64,000 nucleotides of DNA from NCBI RefSeq assembly GCF_032884065.1, contig NC_088863.1, positions 42,302,082 to 42,366,081 of the forward strand, written 5' to 3'. This DNA is from Artemia franciscana. Lineage: Eukaryota > Arthropoda > Branchiopoda > Anostraca > Artemiidae. The position numbers and the translations under genes were made by a program. Positions 9,123-59,013 of this stretch are shown piece by piece. The notes below the pieces were generated by a model. The model was given only the letters and a program-made list of their open reading frames with translations. It did no database searches and was not told the origin of the DNA. Numbering within the stretch: the first letter of the stretch is position 1; each line of letters starts with the position of its first letter.

Positions 9123-9503
9123 TCACCATACAATTTTTGTCCATTTCTTTTTCTTGGTTGATGAGGTTTCTTCCTTCAATTTGGTATCTTCATTGTGTTC
9201 CATTTTGGCCGCTTTAGAAGGCACTGGTGACTTTTCTGGTTCTCTCTTAATTCTCTTAGTTAATGATATAATTGTACTTTTTTTAGAAACCTCTATATTG
9301 CTGTCAGCTTTTCCTGTATTTATATCACTGGATACCTCATTCACTGACTTCACAACTCTCTTCTCAGTTAAAGATACCGAAATACCACTTTGCTTGCTTT
9401 TGCGTTTGGTACCTCTACACGTGAGAGGTTTAGCCACTCTTTCAAAGATTTCAACAAGTTCATCTTTTCCTTTATCAATCAGGAGGTCTTTAGAAATACA
9501 CCT
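9123..9503 (-). CDS. Terminal exon of a basic nuclear protein, possibly ashwin-like
   Basis: On the minus strand a pyrimidine-rich tract ending in ttccag leads into an open frame of 126 codons, ending in TGA and followed by AATAAA. The exon begins in phase 0 with RCISKDLLIDKGKDELVEIF and ends in KKKKWTKIVW. The middle is serine, lysine and glutamate rich, as in disordered nuclear proteins. The stretch KDELVEIFERVAKPLTCR can be aligned by eye with the KDSLTDLYVQHAIPLPQR segment I recall from vertebrate ashwin (C2orf49), which also ends in a basic-aromatic tail. The match is only about seven identities in nineteen, so the name is a suggestion. Upstream exons must lie beyond 9504 and were not found. 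The open frame on the opposite strand is a shadow of this exon. Confidence 0.5.
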   Translation of the reverse strand, partial: RCISKDLLIDKGKDELVEIFERVAKPLTCRGTKRKSKQSGISVSLTEKRVVKSVNEVSSDINTGKADSNIEVSKKSTIISLTKRIKREPEKSPVPSKAAKMEHNEDTKLKEETSSTKKKKWTKIVW

Positions 9504-10324
9504 CTGGAAAGGAAAGAAAATACTTACAGTGACAGTAATTAATTATTTTGAAATTATTTCTAGCAATAACTAAGTTAAAGCCACAAAATAAGAATGGTAG
9601 TTTTTGTGTAACTATTGGGGGAAGTTACTTCGGACTAAAAATAGCCTAGGAACTATCCGCCAAAAAAATTCACTGAGTAACTCCAGCACCAGTTAGTGAT
9701 GTGACTTAAAATGTATCAGAGAAAATTGGAAACAGATACTAGCATATTGTAAATTCTGTAAAAATCAATTTAGGAAACTCTAGTCAAACTCATATTTTGG
9801 GACAAAATTTATGATTTCTTTGCATATTTATTCATAAAAACCTTCTATTTGAATTTAATTCAAAGTTTCGAACTTGCAACAGAATTACAGTTCATTTAAT
9901 CCTACTTGATTGACTCCAAATATTACATAGAAGGTCAAATCATATGACAATGCATTCTTATGCAAAAAAGAAAAAAAAACGAAAAACTTCAAAATCTTGC
10001 TGAAGGGCATATTTGATAATTATTGTCTTGAAACATCTTGCTTCCTTTTTTTCAGTTACTTATGAGTTTTTGATGACAATAATGCATAAAGTTTCAGTTA
10101 TTTTTTTATTTTGAACTCATTGGAAGAAATTCTGTATTTAGTGGTTAAATTGCAAGTTGAATTTCATTGATTCTCTTTCCTAGCTCTATATTTAATGAGA
10201 TAAAACCAATTCAAAAATGTCGTGCATGAGGGGTGGGGGGTGGGGATGGTCTACCCTCACCCAAGTGAGTTTTATTTGGTTTTAGCCCTTCCCTGACAAC
10301 AACTGGTACTGAGATGACTCATAG
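9504..10324. other. Probable intron of the 9123 gene
   Basis: No exon was recognised here. The stretch is A/T rich with no repeat that I could match elsewhere in the window. Confidence 0.35.
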
Positions 10325-20306: not shown

Positions 20307-21890
20307 TGAATGAATGAATGAACTTTATTACCCGTAAAAGTATAAAAAAACACAAAGTGCGGAATATTATAAATAAGCAAAAACAAAAACGATAAACAGC
20401 GAAGAAAAAAAATTTAAACTAACAAAACACAACATGGACTAATTAGCCAGTATCAATACGGAAAAAAGACTGCAGAGGATCATAAACGTGAATAAAGTTG
20501 TTTTACATAAATCATCACTGGAAGACCGAATTCGAGAAGGCACGTATATTGAACCAAATCGAGGAATTATTTTTTTTTATTTCGGTGCCACCTAGGAAGC
20601 CAGAGGAGGAATTTGCAATATCTGAAATAAGCCACACGTAGAGTATGGCGATCTTTCTTACGAAACAGATGAGTCATGCCTGATAAAAACAAAAGCACAG
20701 GGGCGAAATAAGCGTTATAAATCATACACGGGTAGTAACGGGTAGTGAAAAGTGTCGGGCCAAAGCACAGACCAAGCCTACTGACTAAAGAAGAATATAG
20801 CAGAACTGCAGTCCCAGCAACGAATGGAGCGACCGCATAAGAGTTGTTAAAACAAATAAACTCGCATTTAGGCGCGTTAACTGACAGTCCAATCTTAAAT
20901 TGTTCAGTGGTTAAAATGGTAAAATTGGAAAGCAATCCATGACGAGTCCGGGCAACAAGAAGAACGTCGTCTGCATATGCAAAAGAAGACAAACCAATAT
21001 TGCCGTAAAAAACAGTACTTTTAAGGGGACGCAGGTACGATGAACGCACACATTTAAATATACTAGGAGACAACACGGCACCTTGCCGAACTCCCTTATT
21101 ATTTTTTACCGGGTCAGATATTTGGCCATTCCAGGTAACTTGAATTTTAGACTTTGAATGCCAAGAAGACAATAAACATAGTACAGAAGGATTAACACCT
21201 GAAGACGCAAGGGAAAATAGAGCCTGAGAGTGTACAATATTATCGAAAGCCCCAGAAATGTCAACAGTAAGACAGTATAAACAGATTTTAGTTTTTACGG
21301 CATCTTTCATGAGTCGGCTTAAAACATGATGTGCATGGAAGAAACCGAAACTTATCCTAAAACCAAACTGAAAAGGCGTAAAATCACAATTCGACTCAAT
21401 TTCTGGTAGTAATAAATGTTCAAGCAGCTTACTTAAAAAACGCGGTACTGTAATGGGACGATAATTTACACATGACGTGGGGTCCTTGCCTCGCTTTTGA
21501 ATAGACGTTACACGGTCATGAAGGAAACTATCAGAAACAAGCGACTGAGCTAAGCAAGGCTGGAAAAACATTTGTAGATGGTTAAGTAGCGCAGGATACC
21601 TGTAGGCCCAAGCGTTTTTGCCGCTTCGCGCGTCATATACATACCATAAAAGGGAGAGTCAATATACCTTGAGAAAATAATCTTTATAAGGATAGTTTTT
21701 ATTTTATCACAAAATAAATTCACTGACGATAATAATTTAAGAATCAAATATTCGTACACCAGGGACATTAAGTAAACTGAACTGGCCTTCAAGGTATTGG
21801 AAGTAAATTTAATCCATTCGTAGATAGCAAAACATAAATACATGTACGCATTATACACGAGTCTGTGAGTAGGACTATTTATCTTCAAAG
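20307..21890 (-). mobile_element. 5'-truncated LINE with reverse transcriptase
   Basis: Read on the minus strand, this ends in AATAAA (20324-20329) and a short TTCA repeat tail (20307-20322), a normal LINE 3' end. The polymerase frame occupies 20567-21571. The 5' end at about 21890 lies next to a hAT remnant, so the copy may have inserted beside or into it. No endonuclease remains. Clade is uncertain; it belongs broadly with the CR1/Jockey/I group. Confidence 0.8.
20567..21571 (-). CDS. LINE reverse transcriptase, long open frame
   Basis: This 334-residue open frame carries the reverse transcriptase blocks in order: VNYRPITVPRFLSKLLEH near residue 35, FQFGFR near 66, TVDISGAFDNIVHSQAL near 101 with the first catalytic aspartate, GVRQGAVLSPSIF near 159, and the catalytic FAYADDVLL near 192. 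A C-terminal arginine-rich segment follows. The methionine at its start is not the true beginning, because the polymerase N-terminus continues in another frame (21550-21888, with REAAKTLGPTGI) separated by a one-base shift near 21600. The enzyme would copy LINE RNA at a nicked target. Apart from that shift the catalytic core looks intact, so this copy is fairly young, but its missing 5' half makes it unable to move itself. Confidence 0.85.
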   Translation of the reverse strand: MFFQPCLAQSLVSDSFLHDRVTSIQKRGKDPTSCVNYRPITVPRFLSKLLEHLLLPEIESNCDFTPFQFGFRISFGFFHAHHVLSRLMKDAVKTKICLYCLTVDISGAFDNIVHSQALFSLASSGVNPSVLCLLSSWHSKSKIQVTWNGQISDPVKNNKGVRQGAVLSPSIFKCVRSSYLRPLKSTVFYGNIGLSSFAYADDVLLVARTRHGLLSNFTILTTEQFKIGLSVNAPKCEFICFNNSYAVAPFVAGTAVLLYSSLVSRLGLCFGPTLFTTRYYPCMIYNAYFAPVLLFLSGMTHLFRKKDRHTLRVAYFRYCKFLLWLPRWHRNKKK

Positions 21891-25640: not shown

Positions 25641-27459
25641 ACTATAATTACTACTACTGCTCCTACTGCGACCTCTACCACCATTAAACTAGTACTAATA
25701 AGGCTACGCATATCAAGTTGAAAATTTGACAGAACAGAGAATTTGAGTGAGAATTTGAAATAAATTAAAGGACACTATGTGCATGCAGATTGCCAATATG
25801 GTTTATCTCAAAAAGGGATTTGGGTATTAAGTTGGAACTTCCAGAGAATGCTGAAGGGAAAGTCAATCCACCAAAAGGAAATATGTGCAGGCTCAGGCCT
25901 GGGTTTACCACTAGGTCGCTAGGCCTGGACCTAGGGGTGCATAATACCAGGGGACGCAATGAATTATCGCTGATTTTTTTTCCTGGCAAAACTGGACTGA
26001 AGTACCTTATTGTCGCCAAGTGTACTCTGCCGCCTTACTGCCTATTCACAGAATTACAACTGTGAATAGTGTACCGCCATACTGCCTATTCACAGAATTA
26101 CTACTGTGAATAGTGTGAAAAACACTATTATTACTACTGCTCCTACTGCGACCTCTACCACCATTAAACTAGTACTAATAAGGCTACGCGAATCAAGTTG
26201 AAAATTTGACAGAACGGAGAATTTGAGTGAGAATTTGAAATAGATTAAAAGACACTATGTGCATGCAGATTGTCAATATGGCGTATCTCAAAAAGGGATT
26301 TGGGCTTAAGTTGGAACTTTCAGAGAATGCTGAAGGGAAAGTCAATTCACCAAAAGGAAATATGTGCAGGCTCAGGCCTGGGTTTACCACTAGGTCGCTA
26401 GGCCTGGACCTAGGGGTGCATAATACCAGGGGACGCAATGAATTATCGCTGAGTGATTTTTTTTCCTGACAAAACTGGACTGAAGTACCTTATTGTCGCC
26501 AGGTGTACTCTGCCGCCGTACTGCCTATTCACAGAATTACTACTGTGAATAGTGTACAAAAACACTATTATTACTACTGCTCCTACTGCGACCTCTACCA
26601 CCATTAAACTAGTACTAATAAGGCTACGCGTATCAAGTTGAAAATTTGACAGAACGGAGAATTTGAGTGAGAATTTGAAATAGATTAAAAGACACTATGT
26701 GCATGCAGATTGTCAATATAGCGTATCTCAAAAAGGGATTGAGGCTTAAGTTGGAACTTTCAGAGAATGCTGAAGGGAAAGTCAATTCACCAAAAGGAAA
26801 TATGTGCAGGCTCAGGCCTGGGTTTACCACTAGGTCGCTAGGCCTGGACCTAGGGGTGCATAATACCAGGGGACGCAATGAATTATCGCTGAGTGATTTT
26901 TTTTCCTGACAAAACTGGACTGAAGTACCCTATTGTCGCCAGGTGTACTCTGCCGCCGTACTGCCTATTCACAGAATTACTACAGTGAATAGTGTACCGC
27001 CGTACTGCCTATTCACAGAATTACTACTGTGAATAGTGTGAAAAACACTATTATTACTACTGCTCCTACTGCGACCTCTACCACCATTAAACTAGTACTA
27101 ATAAGGCTACGCGTATCAAGTTGAAAATTTGACAGAACGGAGAATTTGAGTGAGAATTTGAAATAGATTAAAAGACACTATGTGCATGCAGATTGTCAAT
27201 ATGGCGTATCTCAAAAAGGGATTTGGGCTTAAGTTGGAACTTTCAGAGAATGCTGAAGGGAAAGTCAATTCACCAAAAGGAAATATGTGCAGGCTCAGGC
27301 CTGGGTTTACCACTAGGTTGCTAGGCCTGGACCTAGGGGTGCATAATGCCAGGGGACGCAATTAATTATCGCTGAGTGATTTTTTCCTGACAAAACTGGA
27401 CTGAAGTGCCTTATTGTCGCCAGGTGTACTCTGCCGCCGTACTGCCTATTCACAGAAAA
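25641..27459. repeat. Four-unit tandem array, 440-482 bp period
   Basis: Four units share more than 90 percent identity by eye. The landmark gcatgcagat recurs at 25781, 26261, 26701 and 27183, giving periods of 480, 440 and 482. The 40-bp difference is a sub-repeat (gcctattcacagaatta and flanks), present twice in units 1 and 3 and once in unit 2. Each sub-repeat contains the 10-bp inverted repeat CTATTCACAG/CTGTGAATAG around an 8-base loop, and each unit also has a CTAGGTC/GACCTAG stem. Open frames occur on both strands in every unit because the units are alike. Their protein sequence has no recognisable domain, so I do not call genes. Confidence 0.9.
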
Positions 27460-32117: not shown

Positions 32118-32242
32118 TTATTCTGATCTTCCAGTTTGTGGAACATTTTGCCTCGCATCTTGCCTGGATTCTCTCTGTTTCTCTCTAATCTGCATCCCTT
32201 CGGTTTCTGATCTCATCTTTTCTACGTCATCTACACTTTCTC
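32118..32242 (-). CDS. LEA/SMP gene, exon 4 (stop codon)
   Basis: The acceptor is tattattatag. Two bases complete the codon from exon 3, then 40 codons rich in E, R, Q and D end in TAA at 32120-32118. The stop overlaps an AATAAA hexamer, too close to serve as its own signal, and I see no other canonical AATAAA soon after, so the 3' UTR end is unknown. Confidence 0.7.
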
Positions 32243-35200
32243 CTATAATAATAAATATCGATAGATAAATATTCTAGGGACCGTCTAATCAGGTTGAAAC
32301 TGGGAGACAGATAAGAACAGAAAATTAACTAGCAGGGTACCCAGAGGTTTTTCCACAGGGTTGATTTTTGTTCAGAGAGAGGGTGTGTGAGGGTACCCAA
32401 AACTTTACGAAACGTAGCACAAGTTTGCTTATACACACTTCCGCTACTTGTACGAGTCGGCAAAATATTTCGGAGAGGGTTTGAGTCGGGTAGCCCCCTC
32501 CCCTGGACAAAAACTATTTTTTTATACGTTTGTTGGTTTATTTTAGTACCCCCCCCCCCCCAAAAAAAAAAAAATCCTCTCCTCTTCTCTTTCTTGTGAC
32601 CCCTCTCCTCTTTCCACAAAAAATTCCTAGATAAGGCCCAGCTCGTGATTATTAAAAATACGCTTTGCTTATTTTCTCGGCAATAATTTCGGAAGGAATG
32701 ACTGTTTTCTCACCTTCTCTCTTACTCGCTTCTTGCTCTTTTTTCCCTTTTGCTGTAGTTTCTTCAGACTTCCTGCCTTTCTTTATATATAATCTAGGTT
32801 TTCCTTCCTCTCTTGACTCTTCTGCCTCGTACTCCATGGAAATAAACATGCCTTGTACATTTTCTAATTCTCTCTTATCAATTACTTCATTCATATTTGC
32901 GGCTGACTAAAAATAAATGTCATTTGTTTAATAAGATTAAGTTTTTCATAGAATATACACAAAAACTGTCTAGAGTAAAAGAGCCTTTTATACTAAATTG
33001 CATTTTGCAATTTATATTGTTTTTATTATGATATTTTCAGAATTTTTTTTTGTCTTCAATGGTCAATTTAAAGTACGACTCCAGCAGAAGGCTAGATATG
33101 TCCTAGAGGTCTTTTACATAAATTCTAAAAAGAGTTATCTCACATACTGAAGTTTCACAGATAAACTGGAAAAGTGATAAATGGGCTCCATTTTTTTCTT
33201 ATTTTTATTATTTTCTGTGTAAAGGAGCTTATTCTAAAGGGTTTTCTCGGTCATAATTTTATTTGGTACAATTCTGAAGGATTGTCCTAGTTAAAATAAA
33301 AGTTAGTTGAATAACAAACTTATTGAATTAAATTATAGATTTAAAAATTTCAATGAATATTATACATATTCGCTTGAAAAGTTAAACTAACATACCGTTT
33401 AAGAAAAAAATAAATACAGAATTTCTATTCTCACTGTTGCGAACTGAAGGAAAATTTGTGGTGTCTGGAACAAGGTCGTATACAAAAATTTTCTCGGGGG
33501 GAGGGGAGGGACAAAAAAAAACTTTCCAAAGCACATAAAAAATTTCTTTATATGTACTCTTTTTTACTTTTTTACGAGTCGGACAAAAATTTGGGAGGAG
33601 AGTCTAACCGGGTAGCTCCTCTAGATACGGACATGGTTCGAGAAAATTTAAGGGCGTGATTCTTTCTGGAATAAATTAACCCCTCATTGAAGCAGTTCAG
33701 GTTTAATAAGGGTGCAAAGGGGACCATATCTGCGGAATAGTTTTACTAAATGTCCCAAACGAAGGAAGACCTAAGAATAGGCCAGAACAAGATAATCAAA
33801 GTTTTGAAATGCTGAGGATTTCAAATGAGATAAGAAAAGGTTAAACAAGGTGGGAAACAGGAAAAGTGTTTGCCAATCTTTCGACTTCAGTCAGCTTATG
33901 GATGCGACGAATTTAAAAGAAACAAGAGCTAAGAGCTCATATGGCACTTGTGACGAGACCGGAAGAGCCAAGAGTCAAGAACTGATATGGTATGAGCTCT
34001 AGCGAAATTCTAAGAATCATCAACAGACTGATTTACAAGGAAAATCAGAGGCTTAATGACGGTCGGGATTTAAAATAAGAGCTCTGAGTCACGAAGTCCT
34101 TCTAAATATCAAAGTTCATTAAGATCCGAAACACCTACTGGTAAGTTATAAATATCTCATTTTTTTCTTATTTTTCCTCGCGCTTCAGCCCACCAGATGG
34201 TCGAATCGGGGAAAACGACTTTATCAAGTCAGTTTGTGCAGCTCCCTGACACGCCTACCAATTTTCATCGTCCTAGCGTGTCAAGAAGCACCAAACTCGC
34301 CAAAGCACTGAACCCAGTCCCCTAAATCCCCCACACAGAGCGGATCCAATACGGTTACGTCAATCACGTATCTACGACATTGGCTTATTCTACCCACCAA
34401 GTTTCATCCCGATGTCTCCACTCTGAGTGTTTTCCAAGATTTCCAGTTTACCCCTCTAACTTCCCCCAATGTAAGCAGATCTTGTCGGGATTTGAAATAG
34501 GAGTTCCGAGACATGAGTTCCGTCTAAATATAAATTTAGATCCAGTCACCCATTCTTAAGTTAAAAATACCTCAATTTTTCTAATTTTTACAAATTAGCA
34601 CCCCCCAGCTCCCTCAAAGACAACGGATCCGTTCCAATTATGTCAATCGCGTATCTATAGCTTGTGCTTATTCTTCCTATCAAGTTTCATCCCGATCTCT
34701 CCACTCTAAGCGTTTTCCAAGATTTCCAGTTTCCAAGATTTCTGTCCCCCTTCCAACCCCCTATATCCCTGGATCCGATTCGAATTGAAAATCTGAGACA
34801 TAAGATCCTTCTATATATCAGGTTTCATTAAGATCCGATCACCCATTCGTAAAATAAAGATACCTCAATTTTCACGTTTTCCAAGAATTGTGGTTTCCCC
34901 CTACAACTCCCCCCAATGTCACCGGATCTCGTCGGGAGTTAAAATGATAGCCTTAAAGCACAAGATCCTTCTAAATGTCAAATTTCATTAAGATCTGGTC
35001 ACTCGTTCGTAAGTTACGAATACCTCATTTTTTCTAATTTTCCCGGATTACTCCCCCCTCCAACTCCACCAAACAGAGCGGATCCTGTCCGGTTATGTCA
35101 GTCATGTATATTGGACTTGTTTTTATTCTTCCCACCAAGTTTCATCCTGATCTCTCCGCTTTAAATGTTTTTCAGGATTTCCCGTTCCCCCCAACTCCCC

Positions 35201-38200
35201 CTTCCCCCCCAATGACGCTGGGTCCGGCCAGAATTCAAATTTGAGATCTAAGTTACGAGGTCCTTCTAAATATGAAATTTCATTAAGATCCGATCACTCC
35301 TTCGTAAGTTAAAAATACATCATTTTTCTAATTTTTCAGAATTACCCCCCACCCAACTCCCCCAAATAGAGCAGATCCATTCCAGTTATGCCAATCACGT
35401 ATCTAGGACATCTTTCTTATTTCCCCCACCAAGTTTTATCCTGATCCCTCCACTCTAAGCGTTTTCCAAGATTTTAGGTCCCCCCCAACTCCTTCCATTG
35501 TCACCAGATCCCGTCGGGATTTAAAATAAGAGCTCTGAGACACGATATCCTTCTAAATATCAAATTTCATTAAGTTCCTACCCCCCATTTGTAAGTTAAA
35601 AATACCTCATTTTTCTAATTTTCCAATTTATACCGTCCCCCCATTCCCCCTCATATGGTCGAATCGGGGAAACGACAGTTTATAATTTAATCATGTCTGG
35701 TTCTTGATACGCCTGCCAAATTTCATCATCCTAGCTTACCTGGAAGTGCCTGAACTAGCAAAAACCGGGACAGACAGACAGACTGACCGACAGAATTTGC
35801 GATCGCTATATGTCACTTGGTAGATACCAAGTGCCATAAAAATGTGTCAAAAAACGTGTAAAAATTATTCGTAATACAAACCAAAGCAACTGCAGCGATT
35901 CCATCCTTTGGATTTAATCCACCAAAAAGTTTACTCTCTGCTGACTGCAGTGCAGATGCCTCGTCTTTGGTAATAATGTCCAAATTTGCTTCAAAAGCTA
36001 TTGACCCAATCTCTAAAAAAAAGTTTCTTTTAATTTTTCGTCACCAGCTAGTGCATTTGAACAGTCAGAATAACAGGGATTTCCCTAAATTCATTTGAGA
36101 GACCTTTTCCCTATCACGAAATTTTTAAAGATCTAGGCTTAAAATGCACGTTTGAGTGAAAATAGACTTTAGACCAAACATCTCTCTGCTCTAGAAAAAT
36201 GCAGGTTAGATGTGGAAAAAGACATACAGACTGCAGAGAGCACTGCTCTCTCGTTATTTTAAGGGCTCGTTATTATTAACGTTAATTCCAGTTCTTTTTA
36301 GGCTTAACTTAGTCATTTAAGGGAATTGCTGATATTTTGTAGCTTGAATTGGTGGTTCACAAATTTCCTTTCCTTAAATTCCTTAAATTTCCTTTTCCTT
36401 AAGTCATTAAAGGGAATTGCTGATATTTTGTAGCTTGAATTGGTGGTTCACAAATTTCCTTTCCTTAAATTGCCTTTGGTTTATCTTATCAATTTTTCAA
36501 AGCTTTTTTTAATGAATTATCTGTTCATTTTTTTGTAATTGTCATAGCTTTAATATGTATTAATCGTAGGAATATTTGTGATTTTTGTGCAAGGAATAAA
36601 GCGTCGGAATAGTTTAAATCTTAGGTATTTAAATATTCAATTGAAATATTCAATCAGCCGTAGTTTTGTGTAATAACTTCAATAATATTTTTTTTTCTTA
36701 TTTCTAGAGTGAAATAGCTTGGAACCATACACAGTGCACCAGCGAATTCTTCTTGCCCAAACAACCCAAATATCTAAAAAGGCCCCCTTTCATGTGAAAA
36801 TTTAAATTTGATTTGAATTGTTTTTCTATTTTTATTTCAACAAATATTTTTTGGGAATTTTTTAAACGAGCTAAAAACTTCGCGAAAACGCGGGCGAATC
36901 GAACCAAAAAACGCACTATTAGAATCATCACGACTGAAAATAGTTAGCCCGAGGTGTACACTGTTCTATGTTGAAAACGTCTGCCCCGTCCTCATATCGA
37001 GAATAAGGTCTTTAGCACTTGAAACCGTTGTCTACAGCAACAAAAAAAAAAGAAAGAAGAAAAAAAAAAAAAAATTATGTACATACTCTCCTGGCGCTGA
37101 AATTTGACGTGCATAAATCATCACTTTAGATAATAGTTTTGATTTTGGATGGTATCAATTTTTTTTTATTTCATTATTTTACTTTTTCGATTTCTGTAGA
37201 AAAAATGTTTGTCAGTGTAGTACCTTCAGACTTGTTTATGCTTCACAGTTGACGCAGCAGCTACAGCCTAGTAGAGAGGAAACCGTGTTTTTTTGAAACA
37301 GGAAACTGAGAAACTAAATTTCAGAGATTGTTCCAATGTTGCCAGTTCCTTTTTGAATCTTTTTTTTTAACCAGAAGCTTCCCGATTCTGTAAGATTTTG
37401 GCTTTTAGTCCATGCCCCTGAAAAAATCTGTTTCTTGTTGGAGGGGAGATGGCACTCCTATATTAGAGACCATATTATGTTAAAATTTCAACTTGAAGAA
37501 AAAACTAATTTTGGTTCCAGAGACGTTAAAATTTTAGTCCGAAAATTTTTTCTTCCGATTGGCTTAAAATTGTAATTAAATAAAAAAAATAATTTTTTTT
37601 AACTGAAAGTAAGGAGCGACATTAAAACTTAAAATGAACAGAAATTACTCCGTATATGAAATGGATTGTCCCCTCCGCAATTCCTCGCTCTTTACACTAA
37701 AGTTTTTATTTGTTTTAAAAAGTAGAATTGTGGCAAAGAGTCAAACTTTAGCGTAAAGAGCGAGGGATTGCGGAGGGGAAAACCCATTTCTGTTCGTTTT
37801 AAGTTTTAATGTCGCTCCTTACTTTCAGTTAAAAAAACTAGTTTTTTATTTAATTTCTAAACGTTTTTGAATTAATGCATGTTTGATTTTGGCTCTCCGT
37901 ACATAAATTATTAAAATTAAATTTGCGTAATAATTCTATTTTTTTGGCTAAATGGCTTTCTCTTAGTTTTGATCAGACGATTTTGAGAAATAAGGGGTGG
38001 GGAAGGAGGCCTAGTTGCCCTCCAATTTTTCAGTTACTTAAAAAGGCAACTAGAACTTTTAATTTTTAACGAACATTTTTATTAGTAAAAATATACGTAG
38101 CTTAAGTATTAACTTACGTAACAAACTTTTATATTCTTATGTTTTTGATTATATGTATGATGGGGTTTGTCCCCTCGTTAATACCTTGCTCTTCACACTA

Positions 38201-38910
38201 AATCTTAAGTTTTGTCCCAATTCTTTAAGAATGACCCCTGAATCAGAAAGGCCGTAGAATAAATAGTTGAAATTACTAAAAATACTTTAGCATAAAGAGC
38301 GAAGTATTTATCTCCTCCTAAATACCTCGCTCTTTATGCTAAAGTATTTTTAGAACCCCTCATATGCGTAATAATCTCTGTTCGTTTTAAGTTTTAATGC
38401 TACTGCTTACTTTCAATTGAAAAAACTTTTTTATGTTTATATTTTCATTGTTTTGTTTTTTTAATAGTAATGCTAGAATTTCCTGTGCCCTTTTCATTAA
38501 ATTTCTCTTCCCCCATGAAATATTCCTCCAAGGAGAGATCCTCCCACATAGCCCCCTCCCCTCAACCCCACACCCAAAAAAAATCCCCTTGAAAACGTCG
38601 GTACACTTCCCAATAACCATTACTGTATGTAAACATTGGTCAAAGTTTGTAACTTGCATCCCCTCCCCCAGGGACTGTGGGGGAGTAAGTCATCCCCAAA
38701 GACAGTTACTAGGGTTTTCGACTATGCGGAACAAAATGGCTATCTCAAAATTTTGATCCGTTGACTTGGGAAAAAATGAGCGTGGGAGGGGGCCTAGGTG
38801 CCCTCCAATATTTTTGTTCACTTAAAAATGGCACTAGAACTTTTCATTTCCGTTAGAATGCGCCCTCTTGCAACACTCTAGGACCACTTGGTCGATACGA
38901 TGACCCCTGG

Positions 38911-38952
<42 letters not shown>

Positions 38953-40080
38953 ACGCACCCGTGATCTGTCTTCTGGCAAAAAATACGAAATTCCACGTTT
39001 TTGTAGATTGGACCTTGAAGTTTTTTCTATAGGGTTCTCTGATACTCTGAATGCGATGGTGTGATTTTTGTTAAGATTCTATAACTTTTAGGGGGTGTTT
39101 CCCCCCATTTTCCAAAATAAGGCAAATTTTCTCAGGCTCGTAACTTTTGATGACAAAGACTAAATTTGATGAAACTTATATATTTAAAATCAGCATAAAA
39201 ATCCAATTCGTTTGATATATCTTTTAGCATCGAAGTTCCGTTTTTTAGAGTTTCGTTTACTATTGAGCCGGGTCGCTCCTTACTACAGTTCGTTACCACG
39301 AACTGTTTGATGGGATGTAGCCTCTACTTGGAGGATTTCGATATCAAGAGTATATTTTATGTCTCCCTATGACCTTTTGATCAGACTGAGTGAGAAAGCT
39401 ATCTCAGACTTTCGAGCTGAAATCTTGAGATGTTATGGGGAGTGCCTAGGGGCAAGAAGTGCAGAAGAGGGGGATTGTTAACCTCAAATCACTTTCGGGT
39501 TTCGCAAAGAACATTTGATATTTGATAATTCTACACCAAGTGGAACTTCATTATATAAGATCTTAAACTTATAAGAAAAAAAAATACACAATAGGTCCAA
39601 TTATCTTTACTAATTCAACGTTACTGTGTCGAATATGACTGTACTTTTCAAAAACTATTTCAAAAACTTTTTTCTGACCAATAATGCATGTTAAGGACCC
39701 TTGTCACCGCTTAGTGCTCTGGAACACCTCCCAGGGATAAATAAGACCCAGTTTGGTAAACTAGCCTGGGTGCAGAGGTTAAACTGGGCTCTTCCTCAAT
39801 GTGGCATACATATAAATAAATTAGAAAATTTTAAGCTTCTACCTTCTCGAATTACATTTGATACGACAGGTCGTTTCTCAGGTGGTATGATAGCTGCAAC
39901 AAAAAACGTGTTTTCTTTTCCTACATGTGGTCGCATTTTATCTGTTTTACGTTCCCGTTCTTCACGTTTCTCTTGCTTCACTTCTTCTGGCACAGTTTTC
40001 CTCCTTCTTTCTTCGGCCTCTCTTAGTACTCTCTCTTCATTTCTCCTTACCTCTTCTCTTTTCGATCCTTTCATCTCCAT
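32118..40080 (-). CDS. LEA protein with seed maturation (SMP) motif, 228 aa, four coding exons
   Basis: Minus-strand exons 40080-39843, 36012-35882, 32906-32714 and 32242-32118 join through GT-AG introns of 3,830, 2,975 and 471 bp. Phases agree at every junction (1, 0, 1), giving 687 coding bases with no stop. Residues 1-55 are a K/E/R-rich, probably helical or disordered segment. Residues 56-90 include FFVAAIIPPEKRPVV. Residues 93-130 carry an SMP motif (ITKDEASALQSAESK, then GGLNPKDGIAAVALSAANMN) that intron 2 splits. Residues 140-228 are highly charged and end in QTGRSE. SMP proteins are group 6 LEA proteins, known from plant seeds and, among animals, from Artemia diapause embryos (AfrLEA6), where they are thought to protect against drying. 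There is one SMP motif rather than the two or three of plant proteins. No signal peptide or membrane segment is visible, so it is probably cytosolic or nuclear. Identity with AfrLEA6 was not tested. Confidence 0.8.
32333..32518. mobile_element. Possible hAT-like MITE in intron 3
   Basis: It begins cagggtaccc and has the interior ACGAGTCGGCAAAATATTT followed by TTGAGTCGGGTAGC, which matches the MITE at 314-412 and the copy at 33471. The right end is poorly defined and no clear target duplication was found. Confidence 0.4.
32714..32906 (-). CDS. LEA/SMP gene, exon 3
   Basis: The acceptor is ttatttttag and the strong donor is GAGAAG|GTGAGA. The exon starts with SAANMNEVID, completing the SMP motif, and continues into a lysine/glutamate-rich region (KKGRKSEETTAKGKKEQEAS). 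It has 193 bases and ends in phase 1. If the donor were ignored, the frame would run on to a stop at 32652. Confidence 0.75.
33471..33635. mobile_element. Possible hAT-like MITE in intron 2
   Basis: The ends CAAGGTCGTATAC and CTAGATACGGACATG are loosely inverted. The interior ACGAGTCGGACAAAAATTT and CCGGGTAGCTCCTCT matches the family of 314-412 and 32333-32518. The flanking 8-mers agree at only five positions. Confidence 0.45.
33941..35842. mobile_element. Hairpin-ended non-coding element with internal tandem repeats (family 2), in LEA intron 2
   Basis: The left end contains ATGGCACTTG and the right end CAAGTGCCAT, an inverted 10-bp repeat. At the right end CACTTGGTA-GA-TACCAAGTG (35814-35833) is a perfect 9-bp stem, followed by CCATAAAAA. 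Inside, degenerate units with an aagtttcatcccgatctctcc-like core recur at about 34399, 34681, 35138 and 35433, and a ttcattaagatccg core recurs between them. A GACAGACAGACAGAC tract precedes the terminal hairpin. There is no open frame. Hairpin, short subterminal inverted repeat and internal tandem repeats resemble HINE/DINE-1 elements. A fragment of the same 3' end is at 25418-25435. Confidence 0.65.
35882..36012 (-). CDS. LEA/SMP gene, exon 2 (first half of SMP motif)
   Basis: The acceptor is cttttttttag and the donor is TTTG|GTTTGT. The exon has 131 bases, beginning with two bases that complete a codon from exon 1 and ending in phase 0. It encodes IGSIAFEANLDIITKDEASA and the rest of the SMP core to GIAAVAL. 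The donor lacks a consensus purine at +3, which is the weakest splice signal in the gene. Confidence 0.75.
36013..37575. other. LEA intron 1, unique part, with a 91-bp tandem duplication
   Basis: At 36311-36480 a 91-bp unit containing gggaattgctgatattttgt occurs twice in tandem with few differences. A-rich runs lie at 37040-37074. No exon was recognised; the minus-strand frame at 36704-36931 has no usable splice context. Confidence 0.5.
37576..39310 (-). mobile_element. Helentron-like repeat family 1, copy f, 1,735 bp, in LEA intron 1
   Basis: A near-full-length copy on the minus strand: TTAAAT on the left, a foldback at about 37600-37840, and the hairpin with GTTTGA ending at 39310 on the right. 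The middle palindrome is well preserved (38280-38350, arms with CGCTCTTTATGCTAAAGT). A 41-base A run (38911-38951) corresponds to the T runs at the same place in other copies. The gene still has consistent splice sites despite this insertion. Confidence 0.85.
39311..39842. other. LEA intron 1, 5' part
   Basis: No recognised repeat or exon was found between the family 1 copy and exon 1. Confidence 0.4.
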
Positions 40081-58213: not shown

Positions 58214-58293
58214 GCCGAAGTAGCTGAGTTGGTAAGGCGTTATGTTCCAGGTTCTATGTCCGAGAGGTTCCAGGTTCGAACCTTGGCTTTAGC
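58214..58293 (+). tRNA. tRNA-like sequence inside the Helitron, probable pseudogene
   Basis: TAGCTGAGTTGG fits the A box exactly and GGTTCGAACC fits the B box of RNA polymerase III promoters. The ends GCCGAAG and CTTTAGC can pair at six of seven positions, and CCAGG/CTTGG closes a T-arm around TTCGAAC. No good anticodon stem forms in the middle, where a GTTCCAGGTTC word is repeated. It is therefore a tRNA relic or the head of a tRNA-derived SINE captured by the Helitron. Confidence 0.6.
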
Positions 58294-59013
58294 ATTAATA
58301 CAAAAGAAGAAAAAAAATAAAAAAGGTAAAAACTACAAAAAAAACTAAAAAGAAAATCATATACCAATTCAAAAACGAATGTATATACAGACCGGGACAC
58401 AGGGAATAAAAAAAAACTAAAAAGAAAATACTAAAAAAAGTAAAAAAGCTAAAAAACTAAAAAAAAACTAAAAAAAGGTAAAAAACTAAAAACCAGAAAA
58501 GAAAAAACTAAAAAAACTAAAAAAGGTAAAAAGTACAAAAAACTAAAGAAAAAAAAACTAAAAAACTAAAAAAACTAAAAACTGAAAAATAAAAAAAAAT
58601 AAAAAATAAAAATAAGAAAAAACTAAAAAAGGTAAAGACTACCAAAAAAACAAAAAAGAAAAAAAAACAAAACAAAAAAGCTAAAAAAAGGAAAAACCAA
58701 AAAAAAAGAAGAAAAGGAAAAAAAGCAAAAAATTTATTTCATCACATACCGATTCAAAACCAAATGTATATACAGACCGGGACACAGGGAATATAAATGA
58801 CGACCGGGACACTCAAAGAGAAATTACAGACTGGGACACCGGGACACACATGACGACTGGGACGTGTGTATCGACTGACATCATGTTTGTGTGTCGACTG
58901 ACGTCATGTTTGTCGACTATAAATGACGACTGGGACACAGGGACACAACTACAACGGGGACGCCGGGGGCACAGGGGGGATACATAAATGACGATGGGGA
59001 CACAGGTAATGTT

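Follow-up and report, generated by a model that had tools for sequence, protein, structure and literature searches.

Introduction

According to one published account (PMC8946055), most of the anhydrobiotic animals studied express late embryogenesis abundant (LEA) proteins of group 3, and Artemia franciscana stands alone in possessing groups 1 and 6 as well, for a reason that remains unresolved. In a second account (PMC11061232), the group 6 protein AfrLEA6 formed condensates in fly cells and raised viscosity upon drying. In this work, we analyzed a stretch of 64,000 nucleotides from A. franciscana (C1:42302082-42366081 of the 1.27 Gb assembly; hereafter the window) and found that it holds a real, intact protein-coding gene (LOC136040183; hereafter the window gene), the product of which carries one seed maturation protein (SMP; Pfam PF04927) motif and shares with AfrLEA6 both an animal host and a protein family. 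Group 6 is already known in Artemia and is multi-gene, and a second Artemia protein of this group has reportedly been described by LeBlanc and Hand in 2020. The idea of a second animal lineage with group 6 LEA proteins was ruled out, as the host is the animal already known for them.

Structure and SMP motif of the window gene

The window gene lies on the minus strand (C1:42334199-42342161) and consists of four exons of 238, 131, 193, and 125 nt, separated by introns of 3830, 2975, and 471 bp (Table 1). All splice borders are GT-AG (donors GTAGAAGC, GTTTGTAT, and GTGAGAAA; acceptors TTTTTTAG, ATTTTTAG, and TATTATAG), the exons start in phases 0, 1, 0, and 1, and the spliced 687 nt read as 228 codons followed by TAA. 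The original prediction, made from the letters of the window, had described four minus-strand exons with GT-AG borders, agreeing phases, and 228 residues, and every coordinate proved correct on re-splicing. The translation is identical at 228 of 228 residues to the NCBI entry "uncharacterized protein LOC136040183 [Artemia franciscana]," a predicted gene that public annotation gives without a family name or a precomputed Pfam domain. This entry was the sole match at E <= 10 when the whole protein was compared with about 5.8 billion others (486 candidates scored), and a search with the motif only returned the window gene itself as the sole match at the same threshold (12 candidates). The name LOC136040183 was not found in the open-licence PMC literature. 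Within the second intron lies a diverged 287-bp tandem repeat (window 34874-35625; 2.6 copies), in a 2-kb block whose GC skew (-0.297) is stronger than that of any other block of the window.

The protein matches PF04927 at 24.0 bits (E 4.9e-5; residues 92-130, profile positions 18-57 of 59), and the curated cut-off of this family is 22 bits. The only other Pfam row, YidC_periplas, is far below its own cut-off. Exon 2 alone scores 14.9 bits, exon 2 extended into its intron scores 13.8 bits, and exon 3 alone has no match; the over-cut-off match therefore needs the exon 2/3 splice. These results bear out what had been said of the motif, namely, that it appears only when exons 2 and 3 are joined, that it is single, that it is preceded by a charged N-terminal segment (52% charged residues in exon 1), and that an intron runs through it; the profile comparison that had been proposed as a check was likewise passed. 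The spliced motif retains the hallmarks ALQSAES, NPKDG, and SAANMNE, and the phase-0 intron falls near motif position 50. In a single BLASTP comparison with P0003, the annotated Artemia SMP protein encoded on contig C19, 25 of 53 residues across the motif are identical (E 1e-9). The window protein also shares SMP positions along the length of the motif with plant seed maturation proteins (D-34/group 6; e.g., P0004 of Rehmannia and P0010 of Salvia).

Table 1. Positions of the features discussed; entries without a contig name are positions within the window.
Feature	Position	Strand	Remarks
Exon 1	39843..40080	-	Charged N-terminal segment; covers residues 1-79 plus the first base of codon 80
Exon 2 (E2 exon of the family)	35882..36012	-	Starts in phase 1, ends in phase 0; first portion of SMP motif
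Exon 3 (E3 exon of the family)	32714..32906	-	Starts in phase 0, ends in phase 1; final portion of SMP motif (SAANMNE) and charged tail
Exon 4	32118..32242	-	C-terminal charged segment, TAA stop
SMP motif, residues 92-123 (about profile 18-49)	35882..35977	-	Pfam match placed on exon map
SMP motif, residues 124-130 (to profile 57)	32886..32906	-	Pfam match placed on exon map
Phase-0 intron through motif	32907..35881	-	Same site in each of the 26 E2 places located
Neighbour paralogue	C1:42383901 to about 42390113	+	Head to head, 42 kb from start of window gene
Eight-cassette array	C1:67382507-67427410	-	Eight E2/E3 pairs in perfect alternation with compatible phase; loci L039-L042 and L015-L017
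Dead-looking C19 exon copy	C17:39436472-39436555	+	5'-truncated, TAA inside, following intron sequence similar; locus L024
Degenerate type B E2 copy	C2:9828940-9829190	-	Opposite strand to other C2 copies; 5' end degenerate; locus L045

The SMP family in the Artemia genome

A search of the Artemia genome with the window protein recovered its own four exons plus one more place, 17.8 kb outside the window on the opposite strand, with 59% identity over residues 78-123 (the neighbour paralogue; Table 1). The genome searches that followed listed rows up to E 10. With the PF04927 profile, three candidates were scored, among which C19:12895329 reached 28.6 bits, over the cut-off, and C1:67422394 reached 20 bits, under it; none of 14 control genomes was matched by this profile. 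When the motifs were joined across the splice, the scores were 45.1 bits for C19 and 35.5 bits for C1:67.42 Mb. A search with the C19 cassette gave 21 rows, 20 of which are E2-type exons, and a search with P0003 added four further E2 places. A pattern scan of C1:67366494-67436493 added two more, and both were listed again by a later search that brought no new place. The genome has at least 26 E2 places (14 on C1, nine on C2, one on C17, and two on C19), these counts being lower bounds. Two places that are weak by E-value alone (C1:65110004, 1.82; C1:67371916, 2.8) were counted for their motif and exon ends. The place on C17 appears to represent a segmentally duplicated, dead copy of the C19 SMP exon.

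The C19 gene, annotated as P0003, encodes 255 aa with two SMP stretches (62 bits) from exons spread over 40 kb, and its motif is split between E2 and E3 exons in the same way as that of the window gene. It was the only annotated Artemia SMP protein returned besides the window protein in the searches run here. On C2, eight of the nine E2 exons belong to two subtypes that pair (9689465 + 9703082, 9757853 + 9764173, 9791562 + 9811592, and 13094862 + 13107343). Together with C19, these pairs would make five two-motif genes. De Vos et al. (PMC8406910) report nine LEA genes in total and five group 6 LEA genes that are upregulated at high salinity, and we infer that the five two-motif genes are these five.

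In all 26 E2 places, a GT stands at the same phase-0 site, right after the residue preceding "SAA..NE" (19 places by pattern and seven by eye in translations, with the site judged by the motif). The phase-1 start behind AG was seen at the base level in 20 of the 26, being required by the pattern in 19 and read by eye at C1:65110141. The E2 exon of the window gene has both the phase-1 start and the phase-0 GT at this motif site, which places the gene in the Artemia SMP family. Because the site is common to all 26 E2 places, the motif-splitting intron is, judged by its position, a property of the family that predates the spread of the copies. The original prediction had held that the intron and layout of this one gene bear on whether the animal gene came by transfer or arose independently. 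That claim is not supported for the gene taken singly, as its intron site is family-wide and its layout looks derived.

E3 exons start in phase 0 and end in phase 1, and E2 plus E3 therefore form a cassette that leaves the reading frame intact when repeated. Such repetition is seen at C1:67.4 Mb in an array of eight cassettes (Table 1), flanked by one extra E3 exon upstream (67431557) and two extra E2 exons downstream (67371916 and 67370318). The eight cassettes join to 751 residues without a stop, although 12 of these residues are spurious, one E3 seemingly ending at a GC donor and having been read past. Six stretches of the joined sequence each pass as SMP, with 115.5 bits in total; the join likewise exceeds the whole-protein cut-offs of PF06140 (55.7 bits) and PF12417 (22.9 bits), two unrelated families, but no stretch does so individually. 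Among six array E2 exons of equal length (15 pairs), differences at codon positions 1, 2, and 3 number 81, 55, and 313, and these exons are under strong coding constraint. The array may be a single gene encoding eight or more SMP motifs, compared with three SMP stretches in the plant proteins scanned. No earlier description of the window gene, the common intron, or the cassette array was found in the open-licence PMC literature, as far as its available text extends.

The neighbour paralogue

The exon 2 copy of the neighbour lies 46 kb from that of the window gene, is 61% identical to it, and has the same exon ends. Its exon 3 begins with AAALRNE behind a good acceptor and is followed by a phase-1 donor; the last exon ends in GATTGA, with AATAAA shortly after. 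The intron phases (1, 0, and 1) are those of the window gene, whereas exon 3 is longer and glutamine-rich. The C-termini of the neighbour and P0003 both end in RMD. Two scans gave no convincing candidate for the first exon of the neighbour. Over 43 codons of exon 2, the two genes differ at 15, 12, and 31 sites in codon positions 1, 2, and 3, respectively, with a rate of nonsynonymous change (dN) of 0.39 and synonymous change too high for an estimate. This third-position excess shows that exon 2 is under coding constraint. In a tree of 44 columns, the exon 2 sequences of the window gene and the neighbour group together (93/98), and not with the C19 or C2 exons.

Charge, hydropathy, and predicted structure

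The window protein has a grand average of hydropathy (GRAVY) of -1.20 and 43% charged residues, compared with -0.40 and 21% in P0003 and with -0.21 to -0.47 and 19-23% in seven plant SMP proteins. The charged N-terminal exon distinguishes the window gene from P0003, and the segment that it encodes has a fraction of charged residues of 0.52 and an isoelectric point of 9.9. One SMP stretch was found in the window protein, two in P0003, and three in each of the four plant proteins scanned; multiple stretches are typical of the plant members seen, but Pfam does not demand them.

A structure model built on an alignment of seven has a mean predicted local distance difference test (pLDDT) score of 53. 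Two N-terminal helices (residues 4-28 and 32-48) are modelled confidently, and helices 95-108 and 118-145 with a turn between them cover the SMP motif, with pLDDT values of 73-79 in the blocks spanning residues 91-130. Confidence is low elsewhere, and 126 of the 228 residues are predicted at a pLDDT under 50. By its GRAVY the product is a hydrophilic protein, and on this model it is predicted to be mostly unfolded in water. The single motif and very charged flanks of the window gene are absent from P0003 and the array cassettes and look derived. The window gene is a single-cassette outlier of the Artemia SMP family, in very charged surroundings.

Other features of the window

A minus-strand open frame at 20567-21658 has a reverse transcriptase domain (RVT_1, 95.8 bits) and represents an element resembling a long interspersed nuclear element. 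A tandem array with a 440-bp unit (3.1 copies) lies at 26074-27457. The minus-strand open frame at 9123-9542 (139 aa, lysine-rich) resembles a cellular gene's exon and has no Pfam match at 0.01. At 58214-58294 on the plus strand, a transfer RNA match that exceeds the Rfam gathering score (33.9 bits, E 0.0027) may be a gene or a tRNA-derived repeat. A candidate SMP exon at 8757-8719 (GLDPGDGLGACAL; tblastn E 0.23) was rejected, as a three-frame reading shows no surrounding motif.

Relatives outside Artemia

The only non-Artemia relatives returned at E <= 10 are seven SMP proteins of angiosperms (E 2.8e-5 to 1.5e-2), from a search with a chimeric query that scored 6523 candidates, the proteins covered being about 148-472 aa long. 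That no other animal appears in this search says little, because the window protein itself was not returned among its eight matches. For a prokaryotic source, 298 pattern matches in genome contigs were obtained with two short plant peptides as the query and none was confirmed, which is weak evidence of absence. A tree was built on 44 columns from 11 plant motifs and 24 E2 exons of Artemia; it omits the exons at C17 and C2:9829008, two plant proteins of the seven, and, from the remaining five, four motifs that the extraction pattern did not catch. In it, the branch that sets the Artemia exons apart has support of only 79/51, and resolution is poor apart from the grouping of the window gene with its neighbour. 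This branch makes the tree too weak to settle the origin, and the Artemia SMP motif may have come from a plant by transfer or may be of independent origin.

Interpretation

We consider it highly probable that the window gene is an intact, diverged, single-motif member of Artemia's own SMP (group 6 LEA, PF04927) family, and its product is likely a hydrophilic stress protectant, by analogy with its described relatives. The gene structure, motif membership, kinship, intron site, and constraint on exon 2 carry this reading. On this reading, the family expanded by duplication of genes and of cassettes, and in the window gene a single E2 plus E3 cassette is flanked by very charged exons. By kinship, the protein would be a mostly disordered protectant of the AfrLEA6 kind, induced by drying or salt and presumably expressed in cysts. 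The SMP motif may fold into a short helix-turn-helix through which the molecules associate weakly with one another upon water loss, and solubility would be maintained by the charged arms.

Several observations weigh against this reading. The gene is known here from genomic sequence and the NCBI prediction alone. Its margin over the PF04927 cut-off is only 2 bits, the genome search with this profile did not list its own exon 2, and the motif of the neighbour, its nearest paralogue, lies below Pfam SMP detection. Exons 1 and 4 have no relative at E <= 0.001 genome-wide or in the regions compared. The chimeric-query search missed the window protein despite a length within its range. Furthermore, the GRAVY and charge values are unlike those of P0003 and the seven plant proteins, and group 6 action may have been lost.

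A further possibility, which we hold tentatively and think somewhat unlikely, is that the SMP motif became a mobile exon cassette, repeated or inserted in other genes; the array gene would then carry at least eight motifs, and the window gene would be a new kind of hybrid LEA gene, with one cassette inserted or left behind among unrelated, highly charged exons. We regard as rather unlikely that the product is a former SMP protein in another role, with a fading motif and charged helical arms that act, e.g., as a group-3-like LEA protein, a nucleic-acid binder, or a structural coil. The motif score of 24 bits, the undetected motif of the nearest paralogue, the proportion of charged residues, and the confidently modelled N-terminal helices fit such a role, but exon 2 is under coding constraint with its hallmarks kept, and the changes relative to the neighbour are mostly at third positions. 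Even so, the fading motif and extreme charge of the window protein may leave room for a changed role.

That the gene is a recently dead or unexpressed copy with a frame open by chance appears improbable. The stop-free reading across four exons in agreeing phases, an identical NCBI model, and the third-position excess in exon 2 all speak for a working gene, even if the evidence for it is genomic sequence and prediction, exons 1 and 4 lack relatives, and two places of the family look broken (C17:39.44 Mb with TAA, and C2:9829008 with a degenerate 5' end). Least probable by our judgment is convergence on a short alanine/glutamine-rich helix without common descent with plant SMP proteins, for which the short and weakly scoring motif, the restriction of relatives outside Artemia to angiosperms (E <= 10, in the one search reaching other species), and the PF06140 and PF12417 hits of the array join (evidence that repeated weak matches can mislead) might be cited, but which is at odds with the 45.1 and 35.5 bits of joined motifs in other Artemia members, the two stretches of P0003 (62 bits), and the matching positions that plant proteins carry in the same order.

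Significance

The family-wide intron at one site of the motif provides a clean marker for the origin of the Artemia family. If plant SMP genes share its site and phase, transfer of genomic DNA or deep common descent would be favored; if they lack this intron, it would have been gained in the Artemia line prior to the expansion. The window gene itself, single-motif and highly charged, provides a natural test of one SMP motif without repeats.

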